DNA from: Enchytraeus crypticus
Taxonomy: Eukaryota; Annelida; Clitellata; Enchytraeida; Enchytraeidae
Reading direction: 5' to 3'
NCBI GenBank assembly: GCA_905160935.1
Contig: CAJHZI010000475.1
Span: 221,001-285,000 of the forward strand
Length of the DNA stretch: 64,000 nucleotides
Shown one piece after another: positions 1 to 58,898 of this stretch (its first letter is position 1; every line of letters starts with the position of its first letter). The translations under genes and the position numbers were made by a program. Under the pieces are notes generated by a model. That model ran no database searches, was not told the DNA's origin, and saw nothing but the letters and a program-made list of their open reading frames with translations.

Positions 1-153
1 CTCGCTCTGGACTCAACTCCAGGACGCTACCGCCACTCCGGCGACAGTGAGGACTTGAACGACGTCATCTCCTCACAGCACGAGATCAATCGGCTGAGTG
101 CAGAGGTGCGCAGGCTGGAGACGGAGCTACGACGCAGTGCTACCACCTCACAG
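1..153 (+). CDS. TRIP11: TRIP11 exon a (partial at window edge)
   Basis: Frame 1 encodes 51 residues ending RRSATTSQ, then CAG|GT at 153/154. The acidic DSED run followed by [19 protein letters not shown] matches the start of the main TRIP11 coiled coil. The exon 3' end and donor are repeated twice downstream with an 86-bp period. Confidence 0.85.
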
Positions 154-3100
154 GTTTTTTCATTATCTTTAACTAGTATAAAGGTTTACTTTACGAGTTC
201 ATTTACTGTAAGCTTCGATGCAGTGCTACCGCCTCACAGGTTTTTTCATTATCTTTAACTAGTATAAGGGTTTACTTTATGAGTTCATTTACTTTAAGCT
301 TCGATGCAGTGCTACCACCTCACAGGTTTTGTTCATTGCGTTTTATTAAAATAATACTAAAATAAGCCTAAGTTATTTACTTGTCCAACGATGATATCAA
401 GGACATCAAGTTATATTTAACTACGCTAAATTTATTGTATCGAGTGGATAGTATTTGAATTTACATTATAACAAATTTTTCGTTTGTTCAAATTCAAATC
501 AATTCTATTGATGCTGTATAAGCTATGTTGAAATTGGTATTTTAATTATTTTAATTTAATTTTAGAACAATAGGATGTATTAAATCAAGCCTACTTTATT
601 GTATTATACTAATCAATCAATCAATACGAATTTGATGTCCGGTTCTTTGCCATAAGGCAATATCAGGGACGTTAAGCAATGTCAGGTACGTCAGGCAATA
701 TCAGGGACGTCAGGCAATGTTAGGGATATTAAGTGTATTTTATAGAATGTAGTGTTTGGAAAATTGCATATCAATACACTGTTCTGCTGTTTTCGTGCAG
801 CAGGGTAATGGAGCATGCGTAGACTCCAGTGTTGAAGGGTTGTCTGTAGCACAGCTAACGTCAGAGATTGAGGTTTGTATCGGAAGGGTTCAGTGCTTGA
901 GCGTTGACGAAAGGTTTAAGAGACCCACAACAGCTCTGATTTGTGGATGGTGTAATTGAGCCATTGTTCTTACAGAGCCGTTCATCCCCCCCCCCAAATG
1001 AACCACTCAAAAATGATTTCTAATGTTTGAATAATCTTCATTCCATTCTTCATTGTAATATGCTGTATGCTTTTAGCGGTACAATATCGTATCACTTCAG
1101 AAGCCTAGAATTGAAAAAAACATTTATTACTTTTATTCTGCTACATTTGTACAGCGTTATATCTGAGTTATCATTTATTTCAATTATTGATCAATACACT
1201 TTGTGCAAAGTGCAATCAGAAGCGTAGTGTACTCAGTATATTTATGCTGGCTGGAGTGTACTCAGTATATTTATGCTGGCTGGAGCCAGTGGCGAAGTTG
1301 GTAAGATACTCGACCGCGGATCAGTATGTGCAGGGTTCAAATCCTGGGCTCGCCCGTCACTGACATCGCTTTCGAGTTAGGAAACTGACGTTAACCTTAG
1401 CTTTACCAGCTTTTAGCTTTTATGTATTTGTGGTGCTATGTATTTATAAGATTATGTATTTGTGACGTTATGTATTCCTGATGTTATGTATTCCTGATGC
1501 TATGTATTTGCGACGTTATGTCGCACACTGTATTATTTATTTCTAATACCATTCCAGGAGCTCAAGCGACAGCTAAGGGACACCGTGGACAGGCACCAAA
1601 ATGAGCTCACCGCGCTGGAACAGGTCCATCGGCAGACGATAGCGAGTCTGAAGAGGAGCCACCGTGAGGCACTGGAAAAGCTTTCCACCCAGCCGCCGCC
1701 ATCCCACACGAGTGAGCAACAACAACAGCAGGAGCTGGTAGCACTGAGACAGAGGTTTAAAGAGCTGGAGGAGCGGAACGCTAAGTTAGAGTTCGACCTG
1801 GAGCACCTGCACGCTGCCGATAGACGCAAGGCAGTCGTGGTGGATGAACTTACGGAAGAGCTTTCCACTTCTAAACACAATACTGCCAGCGTATGTCTCT
1901 TCACTTCTAAACACAACACTGCCAGTGTATGTCTCTTCACTTCTAAACACAACACTGCCAGCGTATGTCTCTTCACTTCTAAACACAACACTGCCAGCGT
2001 ATGTCTCTTCACTTCTAAACACAACACTGCCAGCGTATGTCTCTTCACTTCTAAACACAACACTGCTACCATATGTCTTGTAGCTGTTATGTCTCTAACG
2101 TTCATTTTAGTGGATGAAATTAAAAATAGAAATAGAAACAAAACATAAGAATAAAAAAGAAATAGAAACGAGAAAGAACGGAAATGTCAATGTAATTATA
2201 TTCTTTAAAACGTCGTTGTATGAATCGTTATGACTATGTTTACTGGCATTTATTGCTTTCTACTGCTACCTGTTGCTGTTACAATCAATGATATATGTCA
2301 ATGAATATATGACATTGTATCTTTGGCTTGTTGCTTTTGGGTTGCTGAAGAACAGACCAACTGTGGACTGTACATGTCATAAAATTATTATATTATTATT
2401 ATAATTATTATTATTATACGATGTATAATACAAAATTATAACACATAATTATATAGAATTATTATACCTTTATTATTATTATAAAAGAGACTTTATTTAA
2501 TTAAAAGTTTTTTTTAAAAAAGCGATTAAAATAATTCCTCTGCACTCTGGGAAGCCGCTTTAGCCAAAGTGCCACTGAAGCAGACTTCATTGAATCGCTG
2601 GAGAGCAATAGACAGTCGCTGCCACAGAAAAGATTTTTCGCGCTTATCACCAGTAATGGAGCTGGTCCTCCTGCCTATTTCGTCAATAAAGTCTGATGCG
2701 AGAGAGTTGATGGGCCCCAGGGTCTCAAAGGCAATAGGCATGAAGATATAGTTGCCAGAGATTTCGGCATACTTCAGAGTTTTCCTATTAGCCGCGGCCT
2801 CTGCTGCAGCACCAGCAGCAGCGCAAGAAAGGCCGAGATTGCTTATTGAAAAAGTGTCCGTAACAGTGACGTCCCAGCTAACACACTTCCCCTCTGCCCA
2901 TGGGATTTGAGAGACACCGTCTGGACGTTTACCATCAGTGCGGATCAATCCCAGGGGCTCTTTAATGGCTGGGATATTCGCTCGACTCAGGGCGCGCCAG
3001 ATCAAGTCGTTTATGAACTGAGGTCTGCTGATTCTGCCGGCACTACGCTTGCACGACAGGCCGTGAATGCCTAACGCATTGACTGAGACACCACAAATGC

Positions 3101-6100
3101 AGTTGTGTGGCTCACATAAGGTAGTGCCCAGACGAAGACCGGCCGCGACTCTGACTGCTTCGTCGTCCAGATGGAGGCCGCATGATGAGATTGGTAAAGC
3201 CTTGATCCAGTCTCCACTATGGGGGGCCGACACTGCGAGCAGCCGCGCCTTTTCTATTATTATTATTATATATTATTATATATTATTATATATTATATTA
3301 TATTATATATATTATATTATATTATATTATGGTTATATTATATTATATTATACTACATTATATTATATTATATTATATTATATATATTATATTATATTAT
3401 ATTATACTATGTTATATTATATTATACTATATTATATTATATTATACTATATTATATTATATCTACTGAACATAAACATAAAAACAAGACACTTGGTATA
3501 TTTTTAGATCTCTCAAAAGCATTTGATACTGTTGATCATAACACTCTGCTTCACAAGTTGCATTTTTATGAAATACGTGGTACTGCCTATGATTGGTTTA
3601 ACTCTCATTTATCTCGAAGAAAACAATACACCTTAGTTGGTGACAGCATTTCTAGTGTGTTATCTGTTGGTATCGGTGTTCCTCAAGGTTCGATTTTAGG
3701 ACCTTTACTTTTTACAATCTATATGAATGACATTCATAACCCGTTATGCCTGTTCATTTGGGTCCATAAAACTATATGCTGATGATTCTAATTTGTTTGT
3801 TAAACATAAGTCTATTGATGAATTGTTTATCTCTGCGAATCTAGCTTGCTCTGAAGTAAGTAAATGGCTTATAAGTAACAAACTAACTATAAATTGCTCT
3901 AAGTCTTCATATGTATTGTTCTACCCCACTAAAGACGATGAAGCTCTTATTCAAACTAGCAATTTAACGGTATCCATTGATAATAACTGCATTAATAGAA
4001 CATATGTTGCCAAATTTTTAGGCTTAACATTAGATGAAAATTTGACTTTTGGTGTTAATATGGAATTGAAGTTTATGCCAATACAGCCAAACAGTTGCTT
4101 CAACCCTTACATGTTGCATGTAACCGTATTCTAAGAACTTTACAGAATAAACATAAGTTTCATAATGTTAAACAACTTTATATGAATTATAATGTATTAC
4201 CAATTTTTCAGTTATTCCAACATACTGATAAACTTGTTTTTAAATGTATTAATTTCCCCGATCTGACTATGTCAGTATCCATAAAATGTATTTTTACTGC
4301 TAATCAGATCTCATTTGTTTATAATACAAGGCTCTCGAGACCAATTATTTGTGTTCTAGAACAACTTCAGAATTTTTAAAATCTTATGTCTATAACTTTA
4401 TCAATTCTTGGAACCAAATACCTTCTGATATCTGTAGTTCGAGGTCCCTAGCAGAATTCACTAAACATTACAAATATATATTGTTTGATGGTTTGTAAAT
4501 TACTAAATTTTGGTTTTTTGTGTCAATGTCCAGCTAGAATTGTTGCTTAGCTAAAGTGTGTATTTAAGTTGATTTTGCATTAAACATGACATTAATATAG
4601 TTGTAGACGGTGGTCAGCTAAATAAGATGTGTATCATCTTCCCTGACGGCCGTTGTTCTGGTTTCTTAGATTGTTTGATACCCTGTGTTTCTGGGAATTT
4701 TTTATTTTATTTCTTTTAAATGTTTATTTCTATTTGTATTTGTCAGTGATTTGGTGTTGATACTGAAATAAACACATATCTTTCTCTCTCTATATTGTAT
4801 ATTATATTATATATTACTTCTCTTCAGCACATTTATATTGCAGATTGGTCTGGGTTAATTGATATGTAGTAATGTGTGCTGTGGGGACGTCCCTGACATC
4901 ATCCCTGGATGAGGAAACTGACGTTAAGCCTTTATTTATTATTACTATTAAATATGTATGTAATTATATGAAATTGTAATATATAGTATACATAATATAA
5001 ATATAGTATATATAATATAAATTGGCAATATGCTACTGGACCAGAGCATGAATGTGTTCACATATTCACGTGTATGTAACAGCAATCAGAGCGGCTGCAG
5101 GCTGAGAACAAGCGACTGAGTGCTGAGCTCACTGACTATCAACAGCGCTATCAAGACCTGGAGGAGGCGTTGAAGCAGACTAGAAATTCACTGTCGACCA
5201 ATCAGAGACAAGGAGCCGCTGACGCAAGTTTTGCGGAGTATAGTTACGAAGAGCTGACACGTCTTACTGAGGCTAAACAAGAACAGGTAGTAGTTTAATT
5301 TAGTTGTAGAGGTGCCCGGCACGAAGCACTTTGATTGATTTGAATTATTAGCTTGGTAGTGATTGTTTAATACCTAATGAATTAACAAATTAGTAGCTTA
5401 TTTAATATTTAGTACTAGATGATTTAATATTCAATGGTGTAATTCTGGTTTCGCCCGTCACTGACATCGCTTTCGAGTGAGGAAACTGACGTTAGCATTA
5501 GCTTTACCAGCTTTTAACTATTACTAAAATTATTGCATCTGTTTCTTTTGAGGCTCAATATTTTACTTTTTATCGACTGCTTAGAGATTTACCTGTACGA
5601 TTATTAAGATGGTTGTTAGAGGATTACTAGAATTGAGTGTAGTGTTGGACTGTTGGTTACACGTACTATGGTCTTGAATGACTCTATCTGGTCGCTTGGT
5701 TTGTTGTCCTAGAATCATTGAAGTGGCTATGATGATAAAGTATCAGCTTAGTGTTTTAGATACTTCCATTAATAGTAATAATAATAAGTGCATTTATAAG
5801 GCTCTGCTCTGTGCTAAGTGCTACAGTAGGGCTGACCATGTTGAAAGCCAGCTTCCTTCTTCGTTAGTATATCAGTAATATGGCGAGCCCATGGATTTGA
5901 ACCTCACATCTACTCAGTGCTATACATAATCTGAACTGATTATGCCACTTGCTCAGTCTGGGGGCTTAAGGTGCACAGACAATTGCTCATTTTCTCAATT
6001 GTCTCTGATGTGCCTTCAGGCTGTTAACCTTCAGGCCATTGACCTTCAGGCTGTTAACCTTCAGGCTGTTAACCTTCAGGCTGTTAACCTTCAAGCTGTT

Positions 6101-9100
6101 AACCTTCAGGCTGTTAACCTTGAGGTTGTTTCTTACAAATATTTGTGACCTTCGTTTGGCTGTTCAGATAACAGAACTGCAGAATAAGATAGAGGCCTAT
6201 GAGCAGGAACTGGAGCAGTTTGACCTAATTAAATCTGATTGGCAGACGGAGAAGGATTCCCTAGAAAAAACTTTAATTAGACTTCGCGAACAGTTGAAGG
6301 AGAAAGAAGAAGCGCAGAATGTCATGTTGGCGCGCAAGGTTTGTGCACGGACCCAATCAGCTTGTGCAGTGCTTGCAGTTAATTATCAACTCATTACTTC
6401 ACTGATGCTTGCCACAGTTTATTATATGTTTTCAATATATTAGGCATTTTAGTTTTTATGTTTACATTTATTCGATGAAGTTCACCAATTAACTGAATGT
6501 TAAGTTTTGAGATGCTATATCATATTGTATGTTAATGCTTTTAGTTTGTACAAATGTTCTACTTCTCTAAGAGAGTTTCATTGTTTAAAAAAAGGAGTGA
6601 AATGATTTTGTCTTGCATGTTTGGGTATTACAGCATGCATTGAATCCTATTTTTATTATATCTAATCAGCTTTCTACTGTGATATTATGCAATTTATTTA
6701 TTTAAAACTTGTATTAAAATATTAGTTAAGTAAATTCAAGTCATTTCTCTCTTAGTGCACTGCCTACTGGCAGGTCCATGGTACATAACGCCTCCACTCT
6801 TCTCTGTCTTTCGCCTTCCTCTTCATTTCCACATATGAGTGGGTCTTTAAATCATCTAACATACCTAATCTCGGCCTACCCCTGCCTCTTTTTCCTTCCA
6901 TTCTACCTTCTATGACCTCTTTTAATAGACCTTCCCCCCCTTCGAATGTGTCCTATCCATCTCTTCTTCCTATTTCTTAATACATTTATCAACTGTCTAT
7001 CTGTGCCAACTCTCTTCAGAACTTACTCATTTGTAACCTTTTGAGTCCTGCTAATCCTCTCCACTCTTCTCCAAATCCACATTTCCAATGCCTCCAGCTT
7101 CCTAATATCTTCCTTCCTTAAGGTCTATGTTTCACCTCCGTACAATAGCGTGGTCCAAACCAAAGTTTTCACTATCTTTATCTTTGTGTCTTTCTTTAAA
7201 CTTTTTGTTAATAGTTCTTTTTTACTACCAAAGGCCGCTTTTGCTTGTGCAATCCTACTGCATATTTCTGTCTCACATTTCCCATCATCGGTTATAGTAT
7301 GACCCAAATATTTGAAACTCCTTACCTCTTCCAATTTCGTACCATTGATTGTGATATTAACTTCACCTTTATTATTGGACACTCTCATGACCTTGGTCTT
7401 TTTTATATTAATCTTCATGCCATATCTTAGGGCCGTATCATTATCTCTGCAATCCAATCTCGCTGCCCGCTACCATTACTTGGTCATCTGCAAATCGTAC
7501 ATCTTGTAACAAATTCCCTCCTACTTTAATTCCTTCTTCCAAGTCTTCCATGGCTTCCTCCAGCATTGCCTCAGCGTCAATGTTAAACAGCCGCGGCGAA
7601 ATGCTACAACCTTGTCTTACTCCACGTCCTATTTCACCTTCTTCTGAGTATTCTTGTTGGATTTTGATTACTGCTCTTTGAAATTAAATAAATTAATTTG
7701 ATTACTGCTCTTTGAAATTAAATTAATTAATTTATTGAAGTCATAGAAAGAGTTTTTAAATACATAAGTAAATCGACAAGTAAGCTATAAATAAGCAACA
7801 AAAGTACAAAAATGTTCAAGATTTGCACATTTGTTTTGTTTCTTCTCTGGCTTTCTGTAGATTTTAATTTAGTTAGTTGCGTGATTTTGAGTGTAATATT
7901 TAGTAATTTTTTGTAGCATTGATATAAGTAATATTTAGTAATTTTTTGTAGCATTGATAGAAGTAGGCCTGTAGTATTGAGTGTGAGAGCTGTTTAGCAA
8001 CACTAAGTAAGCTAACGTGTGTGGTAGATTTGTGTCACTGAATTATTTCGAGAAATGTGTGATTTAGATGGACTAAGTTAAGAGATGTCGGTTTGCTTTA
8101 GTAATTGTTTACTATAATAATTCTGTGGTGTTCAAGTAACCATCATAGTAAGCGCAATCCTTAGCGCAATTTAAGTACTGCTATAGTCTACCTGAGATGG
8201 AAATAATGAAATTGAAAAGATGAAATTTACAGACACAAGGAAAATGTACAAAGAGATAAATGAAATAACTAATCGGAAATCTAATTGCTCACATAGTAAA
8301 TGCATCAAGGCTAAGAATGGAGATATTCTCATGACAAAGAAAGGTATACTTGATAGATGGTCAGAGTATATCGATGACCTTTTTAAAGATAATCGAATGG
8401 AGCTTCCAAAAATAACTAAAGAAATAGCAGGTCCTAAAATCTTAGAAGACGAAGTTAGATATGCCATTAGGAAATTAAAAAGAAATAAAGCAAGCGGACC
8501 AGATAACATAACAGAATTATTATATTTACTAATTAATCACTTAACTAGTAATCACTTAATTGAAATTTTGTGTGTGGTTTTCACGATTGCTAATTAAAGT
8601 CTAATAAGGGTAGGATATTGACCCCTCACTCCTCCCATATAACATCCCTGCTTGAGTATATATATTTTTGGCATTCTTATATAAACATTGCAGTTATTTA
8701 TTAAGTTTGGCATGAAAATTTGTGCGTAAATTGATTTACTTATGTTTAGTATACTAAAATAGCAAATATTGCTAGTAATTTCACTCAATCACACTTCCTA
8801 TTTGCTGTAAGTCACAGTGTAGTACAATAAAATGGTTACGTTTAACTTTCACGCTGCTTACTCTAGCTAGTGATTATGTAATTTTTATTCACAGGCTGGT
8901 GGGGGTAGAAATGGTAATAAACAGGCATTTGCAGCTGATAGTAATAGCAAGGTAAAACAATATAATCTCATTATTTAAATCTCATAATTCATCAATCAAT
9001 AAGAATTAACGTCTAATTCCTCGCCATAAGGCAATGTCTGGGACGTCATGTGCTATCTTTATTTAAGTTTGACGTAGCCGGGTTTTAAACTTTTAATTGA

Positions 9101-15100: not shown

Positions 15101-16001
15101 ACATTAATGTGGATTGATTTTAGATTATATTAAGTGTTGATTGATTTAAAGTTACACTAAGTGTAGATTGATTTAGATAACACCTAAATGTGGATTTTTG
15201 TAAGTAATTAACTGTGTGATTACATTTAAATGTCGAGTAATTTATTGTAAAGATTTAATTCAGGAGTAATTTTGCTCTTTGATCAACTCTATCAGTCATT
15301 GAACCAACTAGAATTCAGTTTTTATGATAATTTAATAGTATGTCACTAGTCACTCTAAACACTGAGCTATTAGGACATTCAAGCTTATTTGTATTACTAC
15401 AATTAAGCTTGAATAAGCTTATTTGTAGTACTACAAATAAGTGGCTGGAGCCAGTGGCGAGTCGGTAAGACACTCGACCGCGGATCGGTATGTGCGGGGT
15501 TCAAATTCTGGGCTCTCCCGTGACTGACATCGCTTTCGAGTGAGGGAACTGACGTTAACCTTAGCTTTTTTTACTACATAGGAACCTGACCCAGCAATAC
15601 GAAGAGAAGCAGAAAACTCTTGTTAAGGCTCTCAATGAACTAGCTGCCTATCGTCGCTCTAGCTCCGCCTCTGTAACCATGGCAACGGGCAGTCCAGGAG
15701 CCCCGCCTACTGCAGCATCGTCGACCAAGGGCGGGCAGTCGTGTGTCAATGGAGAACCGGTTAGCGAGGATACAGGATCTCAAGCTGTTAGTAGTGAGGA
15801 GCTGAGACTTCTGACTGTGGAGAAGGTACAGGTTTATGTAGTAACGAGTACAATTGCTGCGTAGTAGTTATTTTCATTTAATATTTAGTATTTAATGGCC
15901 AATAAATAATTGAGTTCAGTTATAGAAAAGTAATTCTATATTTATACATCAATTCAATTTGTAAATGGTCACAACCAATCTCTTATCTCTTTCTCTATCT
16001 A

Positions 16002-17947: not shown

Positions 17948-17981
<34 letters not shown>

Positions 17982-24890: not shown

Positions 24891-25219
24891 ATACAATCGT
24901 AAAGACTTGAACGTTCTTTCCAGATACGTAGTAAAGCTCTACAATAATTCTGGACTGAAAGATTTACTCATAATGAACTATGGTATTTTGACTCTATTTC
25001 AGTAAAATTACTTCTCTAGCCTATGCGATCAACACAACAGAGGTGATTTGTTGTGAGAAGTGACTTCTATTTTGTACAATAATTTACTGAACAATTAATA
25101 AATAATAATAATATCAATCAATCAATCAATCAATAAGAATTTAACGAATTTAGAATTAAATAGAATTAGAATTTATTAAAATTTATTATTTATTTAGAAT
25201 TTATTTTAGATTTTAATGT

Positions 25220-36271: not shown

Positions 36272-37073
36272 GAGCGAGAGAGGTAGAGACAGAGAGATAG
36301 AGACATAGAGTCAAAGAGAAGAGAGAGAGAGAAAGTGAGAATGTTGAGTAAACAGATAGAGATCCATAGAGACATACTTAGACGACAGGCAGGCCTAGGT
36401 TCAGGACATGGAAAGGTCTGACATTGGACCTCTTCCACATAGCATTCCATGTGGCTAGGACATTGATGAGACTAAATACAAAGATCAATCAATTAAACAC
36501 ATCAGTTGGTCAGTAAATCATATCAATCAATCAGTCACTTAGATCAATAAATCAATAAATTAACCAATCAGATTACTAAATAAGATCAATCAATCAAACC
36601 GACCTAATCAGTCAATCTGATCAATAATTAATCTGCAAACTGATTAATCAATTATCTCGACTATCTCCATCAATTACCAATCACAAACAGCAATATAAAT
36701 AAACAGATACAACAGAGACATAGACAGATGTCTAACCTCACAAGGGCTGTAACAAGGACACAGATACAGACAGAGATAGAGAGACAGATACGACAGATAC
36801 ATAGACAGATGTCTAACCTCACAAGGACTGTAACAACGACACAGATACAGGCAGAGATAGAGAGAGAGAAACAGATACAACATAGACAGATGTCTAACCT
36901 CACAAGGACTGTAACATTGACAGCGATGACACCCATCAGAACCCTTGACGTAACCGTACGGGCAGCTGAGTCCACACTCCAGGGCAGCACAGTGCCTCGA
37001 GGCAGAGGCTGCGTGTAGACATCATCATCATCATCATCATCGTCATCGTCATCGTCGTCATCATCGTCATCAT

Positions 37074-43807: not shown

Positions 43808-43848
<41 letters not shown>

Positions 43849-49800: not shown

Positions 49801-52800
49801 AGTAGACCTTACGATACTGATAGCCCGGGCCACAGCGAGATGAGCACTGTAGCAATAACAGCAATAGCAACAATAACAGCAATAACAGCAATGACAGCAA
49901 TAACAGCAATAACAGCAACAGCAGCAATAACAGCAATAACAATGAACACTGCAGCAATAACAGCAATAACATAATAACAATAACAGCAATAGCAATGGGC
50001 ACTGCATCAATAACAGCAATAACAACTAACGTAAGAACAATAACAGCACTAACAATGAGAATGAGCACTGCAGCAATTACAGCAATAACAAGGCAATGTC
50101 GGGGACGTCAAATAATCGTATATTATCCAAACCTTAGACCACTCAGAGGCGACCCACTGGGGCTTCGTAGTGCACGATGTTGGCGTGGATGTAGGGCAAG
50201 GTTGTTGAGTTGCTGGTCTTTGTTTAAAGATGCAGTTGTTGGCTGGTATGATCTTAAGTCCAGGAGAGGACCTGTTGAAGCAGAAGACGTCCCTCGTAGA
50301 GATCCGATCCTGACAAGGGCGACACTGTCCATCATATAAACGACATTGTGGTGCAGCTGATCTTCATGATTATATCTAGCACTTTCAAGATCGTGCGTTT
50401 AAATTTCAAACTTAGCTTATCAATCCTGCGAGATGATCTACAGAATATATAACTGGCTGGAGCCAGTGGCGATGGCGATAAGATACTCGACTGCGGATCA
50501 GTTTGTGCGGTGTTCAAATCCTGGGCTCGCCCGTCACTGACATCGCTTTCGAGTGAGGAAACTGACATTAACCTTAGCTTTACCAGCTTTGAACAATCGA
50601 GCAATCAATAGTTCTCTTTTATTTTTATTATAAGAGTTCTTGCACATCTCTCATCCATGATTAACGCAAGCTCTATCTTAGAAGAGACCTCAAGACCTGC
50701 CGAGTTTATGTAGACTACTGGGCTTTATGCATTGCTATGATACAGCTATGATACAGCAATTATTACATAGCTATGTAATAGCTATGTAATAGCTGTGTAA
50801 TAGCTGTGTCATAGCTATGATATAGCTAGTGTGTGACATAGCTATGACAGCTATGACATAGTTATGACACAGCTATGACATAGTTATGACATATCTATTA
50901 CACAGCTATGACATAGTTATGACACAGCTATGACATAGTTATGACGTAGGTATTTTAATACAAATAAAATGCAAATAAATACAAATAACGTACAAATACG
51001 TATGCACAAATAAAAACTTAACTACTTTTATAGACCGTGTCTAGCACACATCTAGCCTTTACTAGTGATGCTCTAGAACTAAGCAAGAGATCCGGGTTAG
51101 TCATCTGTCTCGCTTCCTCAAGGGACACCAATCGATCTTAACCTTAGCATTACCGACGCCTTAATATCGTAGGGGTAACGTCATGAAGTTTTAAATCACA
51201 GACCCTGAAGTTAATGGAACCCTCGTGGGTTCGAATCCCAGCCGCGCTGATCTGAGAGTAAAATCTCGGACACAATGGACTGGTTATAAGGAAAATGGAA
51301 TAAATTGCCTAACGGTTTAAGCATGTGGTATTAAAAGTGATAGATATCAACATGGTTGATCATTTCACTAAATGCGTGTTTAGTTTTTAATTTTACCAGG
51401 GACTGAGGCTAATTAATCCTCGAATACACACCTCACTCCAGCTCGACGCAATCCACTCCACTTCCTGTTCCTAAATACAGGTAATCAATCAATAATCAAT
51501 ACGAATTTAACGTCCGGTTCCTCGCCATAAGGCAATGTCAGGAACTTCTCTTGCAGACTCCACACAAAACAGGCGCAACAACACAAATAATAACAACAAC
51601 AGCAATACGATTAGAGTGCTACTGTTATCCATGATAACATTGAGCACTGTGGAGCCAAATTAAAACCGATGAGCGTAGGGAGAGGGGGGGTCCATAAACG
51701 GTGCGAGTCAAAATCCGAGTAATCAGTCCAAGGAAGGGTACTAGCGGAATGGAGATTTACGTGATGGTCTCAGTCTGATAATCTCATAAAAAATAAAATA
51801 AGATAATAAAATGAGATAGTAAAATAAGAAAATCTAAGATACAAATAAGACAGTATAATAAGAAGAAATTTTTAGATAATAAAATTAATAAGATATTAAA
51901 AATAAAATTACATTAAGATTATTATTACAATAAGATATTAAAATACATAGGCGTCGTTATGTTAGTTTCTATCCTTGCATACGCAGCGGCATACGCTGCG
52001 GCATACGTTGCGACACCCGTTGCGGCATACGATGCGGCACGCTTCAGAGCGAATGTTAATCAGAAGTGCAGACGTTGTAAAGCGCGCACGTCAAGTTAGC
52101 CGACACGCTCGTGATGTTTCGATGAGCTCAAATCGTCGAACCAAGTCTGCAGACAATTCAGGCGGAACAGTTAATTTATTGCTTGACCTCAACGTACGGG
52201 AGTCAAGAGAATTACACTACCTCGAGAGGGCCTTGCTTTACGTAAAACAACAGAAACTCGTAAAGTAATCTCGATGACTTGTTCTGTTAAACGACGAAAC
52301 AAACTGAATCTGTTTGTTGTACCAGATCTTCTTAATTGCAAAATAAACAGAAAGTTTAGGCGCCTTAAACAAGGAGAGGAATTAGGTTTAAGGAAAGCCT
52401 TATGTTGCAATTTTCAGGATAAATTTGATTTGGCTACAGAACATTGCACTCTATTGAGGCAGATGGTTGTTAACCTGAACTACGGTCCACTAATTGAAGT
52501 GCCTATTTCCGTGGTTCTGGAAATGTTGAGATGGATTTATCAAAGCAACCCAAATCATAAAATGAAAATAAAAGAAAATCATTGCGATTCTATTCTTACA
52601 AGTACAGAAAAGAAGATAGCTGCAATGCTGATAAAATGAATATATAAATGTTAATGATGTCTAGAAGCGAAATATAAAATGGAAAAGCTCTACTCTGATT
52701 CTATATTCGAATTACAGTTTTAAGGAAATTCAAGTAAGACATGAACTCTAAGCATCACCTATTATTTATTATAACAACAACTCTTGCTCGTGATGCAAGC

Positions 52801-55323: not shown

Positions 55324-55374
<51 letters not shown>

Positions 55375-55492: not shown

Positions 55493-55538
<46 letters not shown>

Positions 55539-58500
55539 GGACTGCTTACCGGCAGGTTCATGGTATATAACACCTACACTCTTATTTGTCTACAGTTTTC
55601 CTCTGCATGCCTACATGCCAGTCTACATGACAATATTACGAGATAATCTCTCATACCCACGTTACCCGCCTGCCAGACATGAGTGCTGCCGTTGATGATT
55701 TGATCTCCATGTCTCTCCTGACACTGCACAGTCCTGAAGTCTCTGCTGCCTAATGGGCAGTCCTGCGTGCAAACCAATGTTAAAAGAAAAAGTAACACCA
55801 GTCTATACTCTATAGTACACCGAAAAATGCCACGTAGTTTATCGGAAGGGGAGTAAATTGGTAATTGTGGCTTCTGAAGTGGTTTCCTGTTGCCTTTCTG
55901 TGAAAGATAATTACACAATTTCTTTGAATTGGGGTGACAGCTCTTCCAATAGTGTGGATTAGCTCCCCCTGTAGTTCTGCTCCTGTTTATCGGTAGTTAA
56001 GAGATGTAGTCAAGAGACAAAAATGTTAGGAACTCCTGACTTTTATTAATGAATGAAACCATAGTAAATAATAATAGTTGACTTCAGGTCAAAGTTTGTA
56101 TTTTATTCTCAATAAATCATCGTTTATCAAATCTCGCGCACACTCTGATAAAGGCTATAGCGTGGTATCTGCAGACACATTGTTAACCTCTATCTGCGCC
56201 TTATTAACATCGTCATCCATCATTCGATTCGTCTTCGCAGTGACATGAGCAATCTCTTTAACATTTCATCTTCTCATACCCTAGTACTGCATAGCATTCT
56301 TCATCTCTTCATATTAACTTCTCAGACAGATTATAAAAGTAAAAAGCAAACACGCATTATAGTGAACAATCAACTATGTTGATATCTATCACTTTTAAAA
56401 CCACATGTTTAATCCGTTAGGCAATTTATTCCATTTTCCGTGTAACTAGTCCAGTGAAAGTCCGAGATTTTACTCTCAGATCAGCGCGGCCGGGATTCGA
56501 ACCCACGAGGGTTCAATTCACCTCAGGATTTGTCATTTAAAACTTCATGACGTTACCCCTACGCTATTTAGACATTCTATTTTATTTTATATTGTATTTT
56601 ATATACAGTACAGGATCATTGGCTAGTTAGAGCAGTGATTTTGAATATAGGAAATTCCATGACGAATTAATGTGTGGAGAATTTATACAACAGTGCAACA
56701 AATGCGCCCTCTCCAGTCAGCGTCATGATAATGATAATTGTCAGCTAGTCAGGATTTAAGACTAACCTTCCAGCAGTGGCAGCAATCTATGTCTCATTCA
56801 TTGTCGACTAGCCTGCGATTTGAAACTTAGATTTTGAGCCTCAATTCTAAGCCAAAACTTATATCGCCTAGGCTAAACGCTTTGAATTTACTATTGGAGC
56901 AACATGATGTGTTTATCAATATGTCTTATTAGAACATCTTGACCTATTTATCTGTCCTGATCAGTTTTAATTGGATGACGGATAGCGAATCAAACCACGA
57001 ATAATATATAATGATTCGGCTCTTTACAACCCTAGGGCGTTTTACGCACAAGTGGTTAAACGGTATAAGCATCATACATAAAGGTACTTGATCATACCGT
57101 ACATGGTTCACAACTTCATATACAGTTTACCTTTCAAGCAAGACACACCAGGTCACTGACTAAAACGTCATTGTCTGACGTCATGAAACGTCTTAGCACT
57201 GACTAAAACGTTATTGTCATGCAGGTTTTGTGTGCGTGGGGGAAGACGTAGGAGGGAAGATAAACTCTCTATCTCTCTCTCTCTTAGTGCACTGCCTACT
57301 GGCAGGTCCATCGTAAATAACGCCTCCACTCTTCTCTGTCTTCCGCTTTCCTCTTCATGTCCACATATGAGTGGATCTTTAAATCATCTACCATACCTAA
57401 TCTCGGCCTGTCTCTGCCTCTACTTCCTTCCATTCTACCTTTTATGAGCTTTTTTAATAGACTTTCCCCCTCATTTGAGTCTTTTCTATTCGTTTACATT
57501 TTTGTAGCAAACAATATCTGGAGCCTAGGCGCTCTCCAACCGAATGCGTTTTCTGACGTTGATAATTAAACCTACCAATGCTTTTAAAAATTTACATTTA
57601 CATAGTGACAAAGTTGAGTCATTGGTATGGAAAGGAAACAGGGAAACGATACTAAATCATTTCTCAATGAGTAGTCTATAGGCGTTCAACAGACCATCGG
57701 TTAACGTTGAACTTGATGAAGAACTGAAATACGATCTCGCACTTAACTAATCAATCAATCGCCTCAGCCGATTCGACAGATTAAGTAAAACAAACGACTT
57801 TTTTATTGGACGTCTGGTGGTTGAGAATAAACTAAACCAGTGCCTATGAGATGCGGTTAAGCTGTAAATCAAACTGTATCAAACTGTAAACGAGGCCGCA
57901 TCAACTAAATGCATTTAGAAATTGTTTTACGGAAAAGGCGTGGCCGTCTGGTTTCTATAACTGGCTGGAGCCAGTGGCGAAGTCGGTAAGATACTCGACC
58001 GCGGATCAGAATCTGCGGGACTTCAAATCCTGGGCTCGCCCGTCACTGACATCGCTTTCGAGTGAGGAAACTGATGTTAACATTAGCTTTACCAGCTTTA
58101 ACTTCTAACTGCGATTAGATGTAATGCACTAACGGAACATAGGTTCCAGTTTCGAATTAGACTCGCGACAATATCTCTTTTCGTCACAGAATTATAGAAT
58201 TATGAGAAATTTTAACAGTATTTCAGTGAAATTAAGAAATTTTTAATTACGGCCATTTGTGTTTACACATGTTAAATATCGCCAGGCTCCAGCCACATTA
58301 TTTAAAAGTTTGTATTTTATTGAGCATGGTGCTTCATACTAAAGGCTTGTTTTGTAAGCGTAAGTAAATCATAATAAAGGAATAAACCTGTAGATTGCAC
58401 GACAGTATCTTTCGGCTATTTCCACCACACAATTCTGATCCATCCAACCTGAATTCAACAAAAAGGAACATAAATTAAACCGAAATTAATCGTTATATAG

Positions 58501-58898
58501 TTTTTATTGTTATTTGATTGATTTGTTATGTTCTCTAGTGGGACTTACACTTGTTGGCTACGTAGTAGGCCATGGATGATGGATTCAATTTTCGACTCTC
58601 TTACATAGCCATATGACAAAACAGACTTTAAATATTCAAGATGTGTCCCGCTATACACCTATTTTAAATTTAATCATCAGTTCCTAGTTTTTAATCAAGT
58701 GATAAATTGTTTGAAAGACTGTTGGTTGTTTGATGGATTGATTGATTAATTGATTGAATAATTGATTGAGTGATTGATTGATTGATCGAGTACATACCCT
58801 AACAGCAGACATTCTCTGGTAACGTACTTAACCCCTCCCCCACAGGTTCTAGAACATTCTGACTCCTCCTTCCATTCACTCCAGCCTTCCTCTGCATC
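28765..58898 (-). CDS. PAPLN: Papilin gene, - strand, first TSP1 to stop codon (signal-peptide exon not found)
   Basis: This encodes a secreted extracellular-matrix glycoprotein related to the ADAMTS ancillary region. In flies and worms papilin acts in basement-membrane assembly and cell migration (family knowledge). Domain order read from exons: TSP1, Cys-rich module, TSP1 x3 (the last incomplete), six lagrin-like GCCxDG repeats with a Thr/Asp-rich linker, ten Kunitz, antistasin-like, two WAP, three Ig, PLAC. Exon phases agree throughout; from the lagrin-like exons on, nearly all introns are phase 1, as expected for shuffled extracellular modules. Stop TAA is at 28765-28767. Recognition is by this unique order and by the PLAC ending. 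No ADAMTS-type spacer was found between 55159 and 51470. The gene is convergent with TRIP11. Confidence 0.93.
29385..29570 (-). repeat. About 48-bp tandem repeat derived from the Ig3 exon donor (4 copies plus the real site)
   Basis: On the - strand each unit carries a version of CCATAGAGC|GTATGTTAC like the genuine GTAGAGC|GTATGTTATC at 29776, then GTGAGTGCTCAATRTTGTCA. Four units lie at 29385-29570, separated from the real donor by a (TAA)n run at 29700-29733. Confidence 0.9.
29776..30093 (-). CDS. PAPLN: Papilin Ig domain 3
   Basis: Phase 1 to 1. I-set-like: [13 protein letters not shown] (first Cys), [10 protein letters not shown] (core Trp), [12 protein letters not shown] (second Cys; DxGxFxC in place of DxGxYxC). 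One NST and one NFT sequon near the start and NVT near the end. Confidence 0.93.
30636..30865 (+). mobile_element. tRNA-like SINE (family B)
   Basis: A-box-like TAGCGTAGGGG, B box GGTTCGAATCC inside GGGTTCGAATCCCAGCCGCG, then AAATTGCCTAACGGTTTAAA and TATAATGCGTGTTTACTTT. Other copies: 51155, 56335(-), 62105 and 62812(-), plus two tandem diverged copies at 44725-44965(-). Confidence 0.82.
30974..31246 (-). CDS. PAPLN: Papilin Ig domain 2
   Basis: Phase 1 to 1 from GACTAG|TTCCC to [38 protein letters not shown], and [15 protein letters not shown] give a complete I-set Ig with both Cys and Trp. Confidence 0.95.
31262..31375 (-). repeat. (ATC)n tail of a reverse-oriented retroposon 3' end
   Basis: A CATCATCATC tract joins TTAAATCCTAGATAAACCAG GGTCAGG, the complement of the CCTGACCCTGGTTAAACTGG family seen at 25365, 37340 and 49395. 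Confidence 0.75.
31440..31805. repeat. Degenerate (AATCAATGATTTAATC) tandem array
   Basis: About 360 bp of imperfect TCAATAAATCAATGATTTAA units in the Ig1-Ig2 intron. Confidence 0.85.
32355..32500 (-). CDS. PAPLN: Papilin Ig domain 1, second half
   Basis: Phase 2 to 1 from GGTTCTAG|CCTGG to GTCAATG|GTAAGA. Encodes [20 protein letters not shown] then YTCRHG, the strands and second Cys of an Ig fold whose first half is at 33523-33649. Confidence 0.92.
32515..33090 (-). repeat. 10-12-bp CTAG-containing array beside the Ig1b acceptor
   Basis: AGACCCTAGTGGGTCCTAGT-type units repeat about 50 times, starting 15 bp upstream of the Ig1 second-half acceptor. On the transcribed strand every unit has a CTAG like that acceptor. 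Confidence 0.9.
33133..33237 (+). mobile_element. Diverged SINE family A
   Basis: CAGTGGCATGATGG...GGATCAGTAGG, GGCCGTCACTGACTTCC and GAAACAGACGTTAAG tail. Confidence 0.65.
33523..33649 (-). CDS. PAPLN: Papilin linker plus Ig domain 1, first half
   Basis: Phase 1 to 2 from TTGTAG|AGGAG to GACAA|GTAAGA. Linker [20 protein letters not shown], then [20 protein letters not shown] with the first Ig Cys and core Trp. An earlier GTGAGT at 33595 looks like a donor but is read through in frame. Confidence 0.9.
34135..34275 (+). mobile_element. LINE 3'-end block
   Basis: GGACTGATTATCTGGATTTT, GCTCGCCGGCTTGATTTTGT and GTTGTCATTGATGACTCTAA; another copy at 35165-35360 has a (TGTTA)n end. Confidence 0.6.
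34643..34798 (-). CDS. PAPLN: Papilin WAP domain 2
   Basis: Phase 1 to 1 from GCTGCAG|AAAAA to [36 protein letters not shown] and [10 protein letters not shown] give the eight-Cys four-disulfide core. Confidence 0.93.
35375..35545 (-). CDS. PAPLN: Papilin WAP domain 1
   Basis: Phase 1 to 1 from CTGTAG|AAGAG to [41 protein letters not shown] and [10 protein letters not shown]. The donor was chosen over CCC|GTATTT because only it keeps the phase with WAP 2. Confidence 0.92.
35600..35860. mobile_element. Family C tail (-) followed by LINE-tail SINE (+)
   Basis: A reverse ACGTCCCT...CATCCAGGGATGATGTC block abuts a forward SINE copy: GAGGAAGGCAACGAGAAACC to GCCACTTGGCAGTGCATTGA. Confidence 0.7.
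36196..36345. repeat. (GA)n microsatellite
   Basis: About 150 bp of GAGAGA just downstream of the 36378 papilin donor. Confidence 0.95.
36378..36471 (-). CDS. PAPLN: Papilin Cys-rich exon, second antistasin-like segment
   Basis: Phase 0 to 1 from TATTTAG|TCTCATC to [33 protein letters not shown] then [11 protein letters not shown]; five Cys spaced like an antistasin/hirustasin end. It links antistasin to WAP 1. Confidence 0.78.
36729..36900 (-). repeat. 81-bp tandem repeat carrying a splice donor (3 copies)
   Basis: The - strand sequence TTACAGYCCTTGTGAG|GTTAGAC occurs at about 36899, 36819 and 36738, each followed by ATCTGTC and a GT/CT-rich spacer. Only the first is joined to the exon. 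Confidence 0.9.
36899..37008 (-). CDS. PAPLN: Papilin antistasin-like domain
   Basis: Phase 1 to 0 from CACGCAG|CCTCT to [32 protein letters not shown] then CYSPCE matches the antistasin signature C.L.CPyGf....GC..C.C. Confidence 0.9.
37020..37138 (-). repeat. (CAT/CGT)n trinucleotide tract
   Basis: ATCATCATCGTCATCGTC... directly upstream of the antistasin exon acceptor. Likely a retroposon tail like the (GAT)n copies. Confidence 0.9.
37290..37415 (+). mobile_element. Retroposon 3' end with (GAT)n tail
   Basis: GGACAGAGAGGATTTGGGAC, CGACCCTGGTTAAACTAGGA, then AGAGGATGATGATGATG. Sits about 10 bp below the Kunitz 10 donor. Confidence 0.72.
37424..37536 (-). CDS. PAPLN: Papilin Kunitz 10, second half
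   Basis: Phase 2 to 1. [20 protein letters not shown] then [15 protein letters not shown]. The only Kunitz split by an intron here. A (CT)n tract forms its acceptor. Confidence 0.92.
37545..37695 (-). mobile_element. CR1-like LINE 3' end, reverse copy
   Basis: Matches 12950-13070 in reverse: GTCAACTAGATAGGTTACTT and TTTGACGGCCTTGTTTGTG. Confidence 0.6.
37928..38189 (-). CDS. PAPLN: Papilin Kunitz 9 and first half of Kunitz 10
   Basis: Phase 1 to 2 from CTCAG|CTGTT to GATCAG|GTATAC. Kunitz 9: [34 protein letters not shown]1 is Phe. Kunitz 10 opens [17 protein letters not shown]1 also Phe. Confidence 0.93.
38225..38460. mobile_element. Family C tail with (TTA)n (+) and reverse SINE family A fragment
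   Basis: CTGACATCATCCTTGGATGA and GAGGAAACAGACGTTAAACC run into (TTA)n to 38350; then a reverse tRNA-like piece with GGATTTGAACCCCGC and GATCCGCGGTCGAGTATC. Confidence 0.75.
38612..38830 (-). CDS. PAPLN: Papilin Kunitz 8
   Basis: Phase 1 to 1. [20 protein letters not shown] and [24 protein letters not shown]1 is Ser, so trypsin inhibition is unlikely. Ala/Pro-rich linker follows. Confidence 0.94.
39125..39565 (+). mobile_element. RTE-like LINE 3' end, second family
   Basis: Encodes [36 protein letters not shown], then a [15 protein letters not shown] block and [11 protein letters not shown], ending in a CATCACATCATCAC tail. One stop (GAGAAATAA) breaks the frame. Confidence 0.85.
39750..40042. 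repeat. (AT)n microsatellite
   Basis: Almost 300 bp of TATATA with TATACACGTATATAGGCC sub-units, ending 32 bp from the Kunitz 7 donor. Confidence 0.95.
40074..40367 (-). CDS. PAPLN: Papilin Kunitz 7 with Ser/Pro-rich linker
   Basis: Phase 1 to 1. [34 protein letters not shown]1 is Gln. A 40-residue Ser/Thr/Pro linker follows. Confidence 0.94.
40422..40545 (+). mobile_element. SINE family A
   Basis: GGCTGGAACCGGTGTCGAGG, GGTTCAAATCC, CGTCACTGACGCCGC and GAGGAAACTGACGTTAAC. Confidence 0.83.
41040..41182 (+). mobile_element. SINE family A, diverged
   Basis: GGTGGAGCCATTGTGATGTC, GGTTCAAATCC, CGTCACTGACAGCGC and AAAATGACGTTAAC tail. Confidence 0.8.
41266..41499 (-). CDS. PAPLN: Papilin Kunitz 6 with Thr-rich linker
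   Basis: Phase 1 to 1 from CGACAG|ACATC to [45 protein letters not shown]1 is Asp, incompatible with canonical trypsin inhibition. [16 protein letters not shown] linker follows, probably O-glycosylated. Confidence 0.93.
41500..41780. repeat. (AATC)n tract
   Basis: Begins within 10 bp of the Kunitz 6 acceptor and serves as its upstream tract on the - strand ((ATTG)n). Confidence 0.92.
42080..42449 (+). mobile_element. RTE-like LINE 3' end ending 14 bp from a papilin donor
   Basis: Translates to [13 protein letters not shown] thumb sequence, [19 protein letters not shown] and EEWRRCIP, then the CTGCCAGTAGGCAG hairpin and CACTAAGAGAGAGAG. The donor of the Kunitz 4/5 exon is at 42463. Confidence 0.85.
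42464..42835 (-). CDS. PAPLN: Papilin Kunitz 4 and 5 in one exon
   Basis: Phase 1 to 1. Kunitz 4: [34 protein letters not shown]1 Lys. Kunitz 5: [34 protein letters not shown]1 Arg. Both predict trypsin-like targets. Other Kunitz exons carry one domain. Confidence 0.95.
43173..43349 (-). CDS. PAPLN: Papilin Kunitz 3
   Basis: Phase 1 to 1, 177 bp. [34 protein letters not shown]1 Arg. Confidence 0.95.
43865..44041 (-). CDS. PAPLN: Papilin Kunitz 2
   Basis: Phase 1 to 1, 177 bp, from TGATTAG|GGCGC to [45 protein letters not shown]1 Arg. Acceptor tract is (ATTG)n and is repeated upstream. Confidence 0.94.
44011..44335 (-). repeat. About 60-bp tandem repeat carrying the Kunitz 2 acceptor (5 copies)
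   Basis: - strand units (ATTG)n-ATTAG|GGCGCTGT and TCTGCCTGTATCTACCGG occur ending near 44041 (real), 44125, 44188, 44253 and 44330. Upstream copies lose similarity after about 30 exon bases. Confidence 0.92.
44725..44968 (-). mobile_element. Two tandem copies of SINE family B
   Basis: Each has a reverse B box (GGGAATCGAACCCACGA or GGGAATCGAATCCACGA) and ACTTTACTCTCTGATCRGCT; the second ends 10 bp from the Kunitz 1 donor. Confidence 0.75.
44978..45154 (-). CDS. PAPLN: Papilin Kunitz 1
   Basis: Phase 1 to 1, 177 bp. [34 protein letters not shown]1 Ser. First of the ten Kunitz domains. Confidence 0.95.
45678..46091 (-). CDS. PAPLN: Papilin lagrin-like repeats 4-6 with Thr-rich linker
   Basis: Phase 1 to 1 from AACGCAG|TATCC to CCGGAG|GTGGGA. 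Three repeats [48 protein letters not shown], with a Thr/Pro linker after the first. These match the short Cys motif between TSP1 and Kunitz regions in papilins (worm MIG-6 'lagrin'). Confidence 0.92.
46447..47166 (-). CDS. PAPLN: Papilin Asp/Thr-rich linker and lagrin-like repeat 3
   Basis: Phase 1 to 1, 720 bp, from TTATAG|TTGAC to CCGAGA|GTAAGT. About 75 residues of DDT/DTI repeats, then Thr/Ser/Pro mucin-like sequence ([20 protein letters not shown]), an acidic run, and [24 protein letters not shown]. Likely heavily O-glycosylated. Confidence 0.92.
47350..47510 (+). mobile_element. SINE with LINE tail, diverged
   Basis: AGGCATAGCCTTCTGTAAAT, ATTAACTTGTTAATC, TGAATACGTACCTTGGACCT and a GAGAGAGAGAG end. 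Confidence 0.65.
47895..48000 (+). mobile_element. tRNA(Leu/Ser)-like SINE head joined to the family A tail
   Basis: GGACGGCCAAGTGGATAAGC (A box GGCCAAGTGG) and GGTTCGAATAC B box, then CTCTGACAGTCCCC and GTGAGGAAATAGACGCTAAA, the shared tail. Confidence 0.7.
48058..48270 (-). CDS. PAPLN: Papilin lagrin-like repeats 1-2
   Basis: Phase 1 to 1 from TTCACAG|CCACC to [36 protein letters not shown] and [24 protein letters not shown]. Confidence 0.93.
48743..48827 (-). CDS. PAPLN: Papilin TSP1-4, C-terminal half
   Basis: Phase 0 to 1 from CTAACAAG|AGAGAGG to [33 protein letters not shown] then NEQLC is the second half of a TSP1 repeat. The part with CSxxCG is missing; the previous exon ends WMLGLFGK in the right phase, and a 300-bp array lies between. 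Confidence 0.75.
48868..49182 (-). repeat. About 37-40-bp tandem repeat (8 copies)
   Basis: AGAGCACTATCAGCAGTCAA plus TCATATCATATTTATC repeats from 20 bp beyond the TSP1-4 half exon. Confidence 0.93.
49275..49440 (+). mobile_element. LINE 3' end with (GAT)n tail
   Basis: ATCGACTGTTGATATGGTCT, GGAGAAGGTCTATTCGTATC, CCGACCCTAATTTAACTGGG and GATGATGATGATGG. The following 49440-49640 is (ATT)n/(GTTGTT)n. Confidence 0.72.
49667..49846 (-). CDS. PAPLN: Papilin TSP1-3 core and start of TSP1-4
   Basis: Phase 0 to 0 from GCTACAG|TGC to [32 protein letters not shown], then [20 protein letters not shown] completes TSP1-3; [10 protein letters not shown] opens the next repeat. Confidence 0.92.
49855..50092. 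repeat. (CAATAACAG)n array in front of the TSP1-3 acceptor
   Basis: AACAGCAATA units; on the - strand TATTGCTGTTATTGCTG gives repeated pyrimidine-rich CTG runs. The real acceptor TTGCTACAG lies at its end, and CACTGCAGCAATAACAGC-type echoes of the exon edge (GAGCACTGTAGC) recur at 49940, 49998 and 50065. Confidence 0.85.
50133..50324 (-). CDS. PAPLN: Papilin TSP1-2 core and start of TSP1-3
   Basis: Phase 0 to 0 from GATGGACAG|TGT to [55 protein letters not shown], then [10 protein letters not shown]. The first Cys pair is CxxC instead of the usual CxxxC. Confidence 0.85.
50454..50592 (+). mobile_element. SINE family A
   Basis: GGCTGGAGCCAGTGGCGATG, TTCAAATCC, CGTCACTGACATCGC and GAGGAAACTGACATTAACC. 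Confidence 0.85.
50735..50950. repeat. About 11-bp ATAGCTATGAC array
   Basis: TATGACATAGTTATGACACA-type units with palindromic TAGCTA cores. Confidence 0.88.
51155..51400 (+). mobile_element. SINE family B
   Basis: TATCGTAGGGGTAACGTCAT, GGGTTCGAATCCCAGCCGCG and AATGCGTGTTTAGTTTTT. Confidence 0.83.
51432..51470 (-). CDS. PAPLN: Papilin TSP1-2 opening exon
   Basis: 39 bp, phase 0 to 0, from GTATTTAG|GAACAG to [25 protein letters not shown] is the W..W opening of a TSP1, matching [10 protein letters not shown] in the next repeat. Confidence 0.78.
51480..51645 (-). mobile_element. Retroposon tail with (ATTG)n plus LINE 3' block, reverse
   Basis: AATCAATACGAATTTAACGT CCGG, CTCGCCATAAGGCAATGTCA and further TGATAACATTGAGCACTG, complement of the 34135 block. 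Confidence 0.65.
52053..52639 (+). CDS. Two adjacent unrecognised ORFs (52053-52268 and 52274-52639)
   Basis: The first (72 codons, ATG at 52053) is basic ([20 protein letters not shown]) and ends YVKQQKLVK. The second (122 codons, ATG at 52274) starts after 5 bp in another frame: [52 protein letters not shown]. Base composition is more balanced than the AT-rich flanks. They could be one frameshifted gene, part of a mobile element, or chance. No family recognised. A GCGGCATACGCT-type repeat precedes them. Confidence 0.35.
52908..53042 (+). mobile_element. SINE family A
   Basis: GCCAGTGGCGATGTCGGTAA, GATTCAATTCC, GCCCGTCATTAACATGGC, GAGGAAACTGACGTTAAC. Confidence 0.82.
53270..53548. repeat. 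About 16-bp GATAGGCCTAAGCTGA array
   Basis: About 17 copies with a palindromic TAGGCCTA core in the papilin intron between 55159 and 51470. Confidence 0.93.
53820..54930 (-). mobile_element. Degenerate LINE ORF2, RT to 3' end
   Basis: On the - strand an open stretch includes [31 protein letters not shown]. Upstream pieces around 54730 and 54600 resemble QGDCLSP and the catalytic FADD region with stops. The 3' end near 53870 reads [16 protein letters not shown]. Frameshifts throughout. Confidence 0.75.
55159..55283 (-). CDS. PAPLN: Papilin Cys-rich module, second exon
   Basis: Phase 1 to 0 from GTTCTAG|ACGAG to [32 protein letters not shown] and [20 protein letters not shown] match the ADAMTS/papilin module (PCDLHC...GTSC...GVCVSGKC). 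Confidence 0.93.
55325..55580. repeat. (GA)n and (CT)n tracts with a LINE tail
   Basis: GA at 55331-55370, CT at 55499-55534 followed by AGTGGACTGCTTACCGGCAG GTTCATGG, the reverse RTE-like LINE end. Confidence 0.85.
55666..55762 (-). CDS. PAPLN: Papilin Cys-rich module, first exon
   Basis: Phase 0 to 1 from GCACGCAG|GAC to [31 protein letters not shown] and [11 protein letters not shown] match CPPNARSFREEQC...NGRTHQW in vertebrate papilin. Confidence 0.93.
56335..56575 (-). mobile_element. SINE family B, reverse copy
   Basis: AAACACGCATTATAGTG, CGGGATTCGAACCCACGAGG, and CATGACGTTACCCCTACGCT. Confidence 0.83.
57275..57500 (-). mobile_element. RTE-like LINE 3' end
   Basis: CTCTCTTAGTGCACTGCCTA, CTGGCAGGTCCAT and, reversed, the [20 protein letters not shown] block. 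Truncated after about 220 bp. Confidence 0.82.
57962..58104 (+). mobile_element. SINE family A
   Basis: GGCTGGAGCCAGTGGCGAAG, CTTCAAATCC, CGTCACTGACATCGC, GAGGAAACTGATGTTAAC. Confidence 0.85.
58388..58448 (-). CDS. PAPLN: Papilin TSP1-1, second exon
   Basis: Phase 2 to 0 from AATTCAG|GTTGG to [32 protein letters not shown] completes the first TSP1 and joins DCPLG of the Cys-rich module. Confidence 0.9.
58798..58898 (-). CDS. PAPLN: Papilin TSP1-1, first exon (first exon found)
   Basis: Phase 0 to 2 from TATTTCAG|GATGC to [32 protein letters not shown] then [11 protein letters not shown]. It starts with an acceptor, so at least one 5' exon (signal peptide) lies beyond; none could be identified to 64000. 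Confidence 0.9.

Follow-up and report, generated by a model that had tools for sequence, protein, structure and literature searches.

The question raised by this locus is whether the splice junctions of two neighbouring genes, a number of which lie inside tandem arrays whose repeated unit contains the splice site, were placed there by a process directed at exon edges or by the ordinary spread of minisatellites through introns. The window analysed here is the whole stretch of 64,000 nucleotides of Enchytraeus crypticus DNA in which both genes are found. The original prediction for this stretch held that one local duplication process, or selection acting at splice sites, recurs across the two genes. 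We found that the prediction holds in most of its particulars and that recurrent local duplication is evident, whereas neither the aiming of that process at splice sites nor selection is supported. The strand-specific TTGA tract found at acceptors is the sharper and more testable signal, and it is the part of the locus most worth following.

The two genes were modelled from reading frames, GT-AG sites and homology, giving a GRAB-domain golgin of 21 exons on the forward strand and a papilin of 29 exons on the reverse strand, with 97 junctions (40 in the golgin and 57 in the papilin) and 48 complete introns. The 3' part of the golgin occupies positions 1-24377, where the 21 exons are joined in one frame by GT-AG introns. 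A match to Pfam GRAB was obtained for its C-terminal part (27.7 bits against a cut-off of 26; E 2.3e-6), together with a GRIP match that lay under the Pfam cut-off for GRIP; the protein may be GMAP-210/TRIP11. The sole in-frame stop of the model is a TAA (ENMI*VMNEK) near the 5' end of the exon at 13270-13530, which could reflect a polymorphism, an error or the use of another acceptor. No match was obtained when one golgin exon was searched against proteins, full-length golgins perhaps falling outside the length range searched.

The papilin runs from 58898 to 28768 on the reverse strand, with 29 exons placed. TSP1, Ig and PLAC domains were recognised by Pfam in the two pieces tested, the Kunitz domain was assigned through its homology matches, and the WAP domain was assigned by eye. 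Because the phase is broken at two joins (p5-p6 and p7-p8), exons are probably missing there; exon ends were set at 30974 and 29776, the better donors there bringing the exons back into frame, and from the eighth exon onward the frame stays open for 1670 codons. Identity to the matches listed reaches 47% (metagenome proteins; best 120 of 1244 and of 722). Compared piecewise among the 238 proteins listed, the Kunitz part scored highest with Capitella teleta (43%), while its identity to protein P0140 was 47% along a shorter segment; the C-terminal part was likewise closest to Capitella (30%), and the short N-terminal part to Drosophila papilins (49%). Among the best 120 of 1244 and of 722 matches, many of them without a species name, none bore the name Branchiostoma. 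With candidates limited by length and shared words, these affinities are suggestive of a protostome, perhaps a spiralian, and probably not of amphioxus. One papilin exon also contains coding repeats with 12- and 24-bp units (46760-46824 and 46929-47088; TRF).

A junction was classed as duplicated when the 30 bp centred on it recurred no more than 700 bp away with at least 24 of 30 positions matching, including 8 or more of 10 on each of the two sides. Of the 97 junctions, eleven passed, comprising five donors (153, 1890, 18314, 29776 and 36899) and six acceptors (14257, 18121, 18943, 19721, 22378 and 44041). The copy joined to the exon body is the first one at donors and the last one at acceptors. 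It was noted that neighbouring copies in the junction arrays are spaced 15 to 195 bp apart, with a shortest unit of 19 bp.

In the golgin, eight of the nine predicted positions proved to belong to a duplicated junction, all on the forward strand. The first of them, 134, lies in a donor array at 125-337 (86-bp unit, 2.5 copies; found by both TRF and self-match) with the functional donor after 153 and decoys after 239 and 325, and position 1867 marks a donor array at 1866-2078 (36-bp unit, 5.9 copies) with the functional donor after 1890. Position 14011 is a copy of the functional acceptor 14257, within three copies of (TTGA)n, CAG and exon start at 13829-14297 that supply a further decoy at 14124. 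Similarly, 17815/18121 corresponds to the functional acceptor 18121 in an array of three copies of (TTGA)n and exon start at 17722-18176, with decoys at 17815 and 18010. The array predicted at 18306 occupies 18308-18527 and repeats a 19-bp unit, TGTCAG/GTAGGCGTGGC, about 12 times, the functional donor following 18314. Position 18825 is a decoy copy of the exon that starts at the functional acceptor 18943, in a 118-bp duplication at 18805-19038 whose two copies include 96 bp of exon. The acceptor arrays predicted at 19503 and 21885 are those at 19502-19728 (51-bp unit, 4.5 copies; functional acceptor 19721) and at 21884-22401 (43-bp unit, 12 copies, 99% matches; functional acceptor 22378 in the last copy). 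Both the GRAB match and the reading frame cross junction 22378, the last of the 12 near-identical acceptors. The remaining position, 6017, belongs to a 15-bp array at 6013-6130 that stops 37 nt short of acceptor 6168, a junction for which the test above found no copy. An array with a 28-bp unit and about 20 copies (14484-15196) was also seen to start 10 nt into the intron after donor 14474, its first units appearing donor-like by eye.

Among the papilin positions, all on the reverse strand, 36729 and 44011 were borne out. The former lies in a donor array at 36703-36916 (81-bp unit, 2.6 copies; functional donor 36899), and the latter in an acceptor array at 44001-44357, made up of five copies of (TTGA)n followed by AG and some 35-40 bp of exon, with the functional acceptor at 44041. 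Position 29385 held in a modified form: the four 48-bp units at 29371-29562 in the last intron do copy the donor region of 29776, three of them keeping GT, but the array lies 214 bp from that donor and off the junction. Of the three positions that had been offered as possible, 49855 received weak backing, as the functional acceptor 49846 is accompanied by three more partial copies of CAG/TGctca (49840-50091) that match at 17 of 24 positions each and fall under the threshold of the junction test, making it a twelfth case. The array at 32515 is confined to the intron, 15 nt from acceptor 32500. That at 48868 is likewise intron-only and begins 43 nt from acceptor 48843, which is itself uncertain because the phase breaks there.

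TRF returned 132 rows for the window. By its coordinates the minisatellite arrays in the two genes comprise 34 that are intron-only, eight that include exon and intron, and three that are exon-only, which contradicts the expectation that intron-only arrays would be the fewer. Its coordinates miss two junction-spanning arrays that self-match detects (14257 and 44041).

We then compared the placement of arrays with chance; the statistics cover two genes in one window that had been picked as odd-looking, with several thresholds tried and with transposons left in the introns. Recurrence of 30 bp was found at 11.3% of junctions versus 13.6% of those intron positions that lay 40 nt or more from any junction, with 2.4% at exon positions equally far from a junction and 3.9% outside genes. 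The comparison with random exon and intron positions, which had been proposed as a check and was run here within the window, thus gives no excess per base, and its outcome per event depends on the null model. Since a single 12-copy array contributes 500 bases of intron, base density is biased by length, and arrays were therefore also counted as events, each collapsed to one unit. Under uniform placement over the collapsed introns, 11 of the 42 arrays counted by self-match span a junction versus 2.8-4.1 expected (three unit choices; 0 of 4000 simulations, P 0.00075 and P 0.0015). When each array was instead placed within its own collapsed intron, strict spanning was seen in 8 of 64 TRF arrays versus 7.9-8.0 expected, and spanning with 5 nt of slack in 11 versus 9.3 (P 0.29-0.30).

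The disagreement between the two nulls comes from a crowding of arrays in short introns: introns no longer than 700 bp account for 24% of intron bases, yet contain 37 of 79 arrays. Such crowding would follow from transposon insertions that lengthen introns, or from a pull towards exons. Under the own-intron null the golgin showed 7 of 29 arrays strictly spanning versus 4.1 expected (P 0.07) and the papilin 1 of 35 versus 3.8, while collapsed introns of at least 600 bp gave no clear excess (3 of 25 versus 1.8). Except under uniform placement, the rate at which arrays in this window span junctions is close to that expected from array density and short introns, and with both taken into account splice-site targeting is unsupported. 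The apparent concentration of arrays at splice sites may thus largely follow from these two properties. It is fair to regard the overlap of arrays with splice sites as a genome-wide property worth measuring, as had been suggested.

The edges of the arrays behaved differently from strict spanning. An array edge lay within 15 nt of a junction, spanning arrays included, in 24 of 64 cases versus 11.8-11.9 expected in their own collapsed introns (12-nt microsatellite seeds, 0 of 5000 simulations; 30-nt seeds, P 0.0002), and without collapsing the expectation was 2.7 under uniform placement and 5.5 in the own intron. This was seen in the golgin (13 of 29 versus 5.7; P 0.0006) and in the papilin (11 of 35 versus 6.2; P 0.02). 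Arrays containing TTGA accounted for most of it, with 10 of 12 this close to a junction versus 3.8 expected (P 0.0002), as compared with 14 of 52 versus 8.1 for the remainder (P 0.016). The 12 TTGA arrays include one that is antisense at a donor (58722-58786) and one that is mainly the 28-bp repeat at 14484-15196, the removal of which leaves 9 of 11 within 15 nt.

TTGA was surveyed across the 48 complete introns as (TTGA)n runs of at least 11 nt, and 30 sense and four antisense clusters were recorded. In 10 of the 48 introns a sense (TTGA)n cluster ends no more than 20 nt from the acceptor, versus 1.0 expected (0 of 5000 simulations), and no antisense (TTGA)n was found near an acceptor in the same 48 introns. 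At donors there were two sense cases versus 1.0 expected and one antisense case versus 0.15. Intron ends of this kind include attgattgattgattcag, gattgattgattgactctag and gattgattgattgacgacag. On the forward strand, sense tracts at 17509-17550 and 20281-20449 end 8 nt before acceptor 17559 and 6 nt before acceptor 20456, respectively, and on the reverse strand those at 41506-41697 and 46098-46159 each end 6-7 nt before their acceptors (41499 and 46091). Several of the interior sense clusters lie inside decoy acceptor copies.

Two further tracts are directly visible as tails of a dispersed element, which ends in GAACCGGACGTTAAATTCTTATTGATTGATT after a body of the form ...GACATTGCCTTATGGCGAGGAACCGGACGTTAAATTC, most copies carrying a (TTGA)n tail. 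Eight copies were recognised in the window (611-672, 8991-9047, 25116-25146, 29193-29288, 33660-33731, 38909-38973, 51482-51552 and 63736-63776) in a comparison that used the last 140 bp or less. The copies at 33660-33731 and 51482-51552, on the reverse strand, abut acceptors in sense, their tails ending about 12 nt before acceptor 33649 and about 13 nt before acceptor 51470. For the remaining eight TTGA acceptors, the same comparison did not find the element body. In being dispersed, multi-copy and terminated by (TTGA)n, the element resembles retroelements that bear microsatellite 3' tails. A limited literature search on the element returned nothing related. Other repeats noted by eye in the window include a second dispersed family with a tRNA-derived look (GGCTGGAGCCAGTGGCGA...GGGTTCAAATCCTGGGCTCGCCCGTCACTGACATCGC...) at 1279-1400, 15431-15560, 21600-21720, 40420-40540, 50450-50580 and 57960-58100; broken reverse-transcriptase-like coding in a golgin intron at 3480-4370, where one frame has nine stops; and an integrase- and chromodomain-like reading at 60001-60580, a probable retroelement.

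At four acceptors (14257, 18121, 18943 and 44041) the repeated unit itself consists of (TTGA)n followed by AG and some 35-96 bp of exon. Each copied exon piece runs back into the TTGA tract, either directly or through a short stretch such as the ATAG repeats at 18121, an arrangement that fits slippage or template switching entering at the tract. The other junction arrays have no TTGA link. A role for TTGAT as a general branch motif was also considered, since TTGAT (UUGAU) fits the loose branch consensus YURAY. It gained no support, as TTGAT was not enriched before array-less acceptors (2 versus 6.5 expected, among few introns and with an expectation inflated by interior TTGA tracts), and TTGAT thus does not look like the usual branch motif here. 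A limited literature search found nothing relevant on TTGA or tetranucleotide repeats at branch points.

GT or AG is kept in 47 of 51 decoys, and with a scoring matrix built from the golgin and papilin junctions the decoys of most golgin arrays score close to functional sites. Scores of 12.7 to 13.1 were obtained for the 12 acceptors at 21905-22378, and 9 of 11 decoy donors in the 18314 array score at least 9; weaker decoys include those at 1926 and 18825. In the frame test, every decoy tested leads to an early stop in 9 of 12 arrays, which implies that the copy joined to the exon body is the one used there. Both decoys of the array at 125-337 give a premature stop, and all 10 GT-keeping decoys at 18308-18527 give a stop beside the junction. 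The decoys of the array at 1866-2078 are in frame and open, adding 12 amino acids per copy, as are both decoys at 36703-36916, adding 27 per copy, and one of three decoys of acceptor 49846 is in frame. In the two in-frame donor arrays, copy number could alter protein length if later donors were used.

Compared with the decoys' own consensus in seven arrays, GT/AG was changed at 4 of 84 positions and neighbours within 6 nt at 28 of 420 (P 0.63). The dinucleotides thus drift like their neighbours, and selection on decoys was detected in neither direction. A raw contrast of 3.9% versus 14.1%, which would have pointed to conserved decoys, vanished against this consensus and was probably an artefact of the edges of the compared windows passing the breakpoint. 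The copies that have lost their site are the outermost ones in the arrays at 1890 and 19721, as judged by comparing the copies.

From this examination, the account that we favour, and consider probable, has two layers: neutral mirage-type minisatellites, and sense TTGA tracts lying directly before acceptors. In the first layer, slippage or template switching would duplicate short stretches throughout introns, some of which would straddle an exon edge. Copies on the intron side would be nearly neutral, since splicing would use the site attached to the exon and discard the other copies together with the intron, and duplications inside exons would mostly be lost through selection. These two tendencies together would explain why arrays reach and cross exon edges and are rare within exons. 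In the second layer, some TTGA tracts would derive from the 3' tail of the dispersed element, an origin that we infer for the eight TTGA acceptors at which only the tract is recognised. Being half U and lacking AG, such a tract could act as an intron's 3' end. It may also serve as a landing site for slippage, giving rise to the units of (TTGA)n, AG and exon start at the four acceptors. Some considerations weigh against this account: splicing should find it difficult to ignore 12 equal acceptors in succession, and the excess under the uniform null, the edge excess (mild but present in arrays other than TTGA) and the short-intron crowding may leave room for a pull towards exons.

A mutational process aimed at junctions, for instance through R-loops or transcriptional pausing at exon edges, would duplicate more DNA there and could account for the excess under uniform placement (11 of 42 versus 2.8-4.1) and for the array edges found close to junctions in both genes. 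Set against these, strict spanning lies at expectation within the arrays' own introns, the edge excess comes mostly from TTGA arrays, and the longer collapsed introns show no clear excess; aimed mutation is in our judgement unlikely. Selection for repeated splice sites or tandem branch sites, improving splicing efficiency or providing isoforms, would agree with the functional-like scores of decoys in most golgin arrays, with their retention of GT/AG, with the strand-specific and acceptor-bound TTGA, and with the two open donor arrays whose extra copies could encode 12 or 27 residues. It fits poorly with decoy dinucleotides that are kept no better than their neighbours, with the early stops produced by decoys in 9 of 12 arrays and, for branch sites, with the lack of a TTGAT excess before array-less acceptors, and we consider it quite unlikely. 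That some arrays, above all the 12 near-identical 43-bp copies, are errors of assembly or collapse seems very improbable: the accessible text of PMC3087553 does mention a single mirage, in amphioxus BflGb6, that was aberrantly assembled, but many arrays here have diverged copies and differing units at many loci, which do not readily arise from misassembly.

Within the two-layer account, a broader proposal is possible, though doubtful. In this genome about a fifth of introns may have adopted the (TTGA)n tail of a retroelement as their 3' end, in sense only, the tail working as a U-rich, AG-free splice element that also makes exon starts prone to duplication. If true, one mobile element would both build acceptors and breed decoy splice sites. 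The density of arrays in this window also permits a quantitative test of how the spliceosome chooses one site among up to 12 equal ones.

A limited literature search on decoy or repeated splice sites found nothing related. Human boundary variable internal tandem repeats are described, in the accessible text, as minisatellites with 30-bp units on average, some of them located at boundaries, that change intron or exon length (PMC2812944). Those repeats alter exons and can create introns, whereas the body-side copy keeps the frame in the present arrays. Intron gain through AGGT tandem duplication, known in the accessible parts of the sources from the Rogers model (PMC3087553) and a potato RdRp case (PMC4974935), likewise involves a short tandem duplication that bears splice signals, but the introns examined here pre-exist and only their edges are copied. 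An earthworm metallothionein gene has minisatellites in an intron, for which the accessible portion of the source states no placement relative to splice sites.

Read from the DNA of one assembly, the junction arrays are apparently further mirage-type arrays, found outside amphioxus. Mirages were reportedly first described in a 2002 paper on amphioxus Adh. In amphioxus they are minisatellites at 5' and 3' exon-intron boundaries that apparently leave regular splicing unharmed, according to the accessible parts of two reports (PMC3087553, PMC3902484). The present arrays resemble them, as far as those parts describe them, in having tandem units of tens to about 160 bp across the boundary at both donors and acceptors, and in having many decoys that keep AG or GT, here 47 of 51 (PMC3087553, PMC3902484). 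The unit spans the boundary at 11 of 97 junctions, and both boundary types are represented (five donors and six acceptors). The arrays differ from those of amphioxus in apparently belonging to another lineage, in affecting eleven junctions within one window, and in that several of their units carry (TTGA)n. Splice-boundary minisatellites appear to extend beyond amphioxus, here at a density of about one junction in nine.
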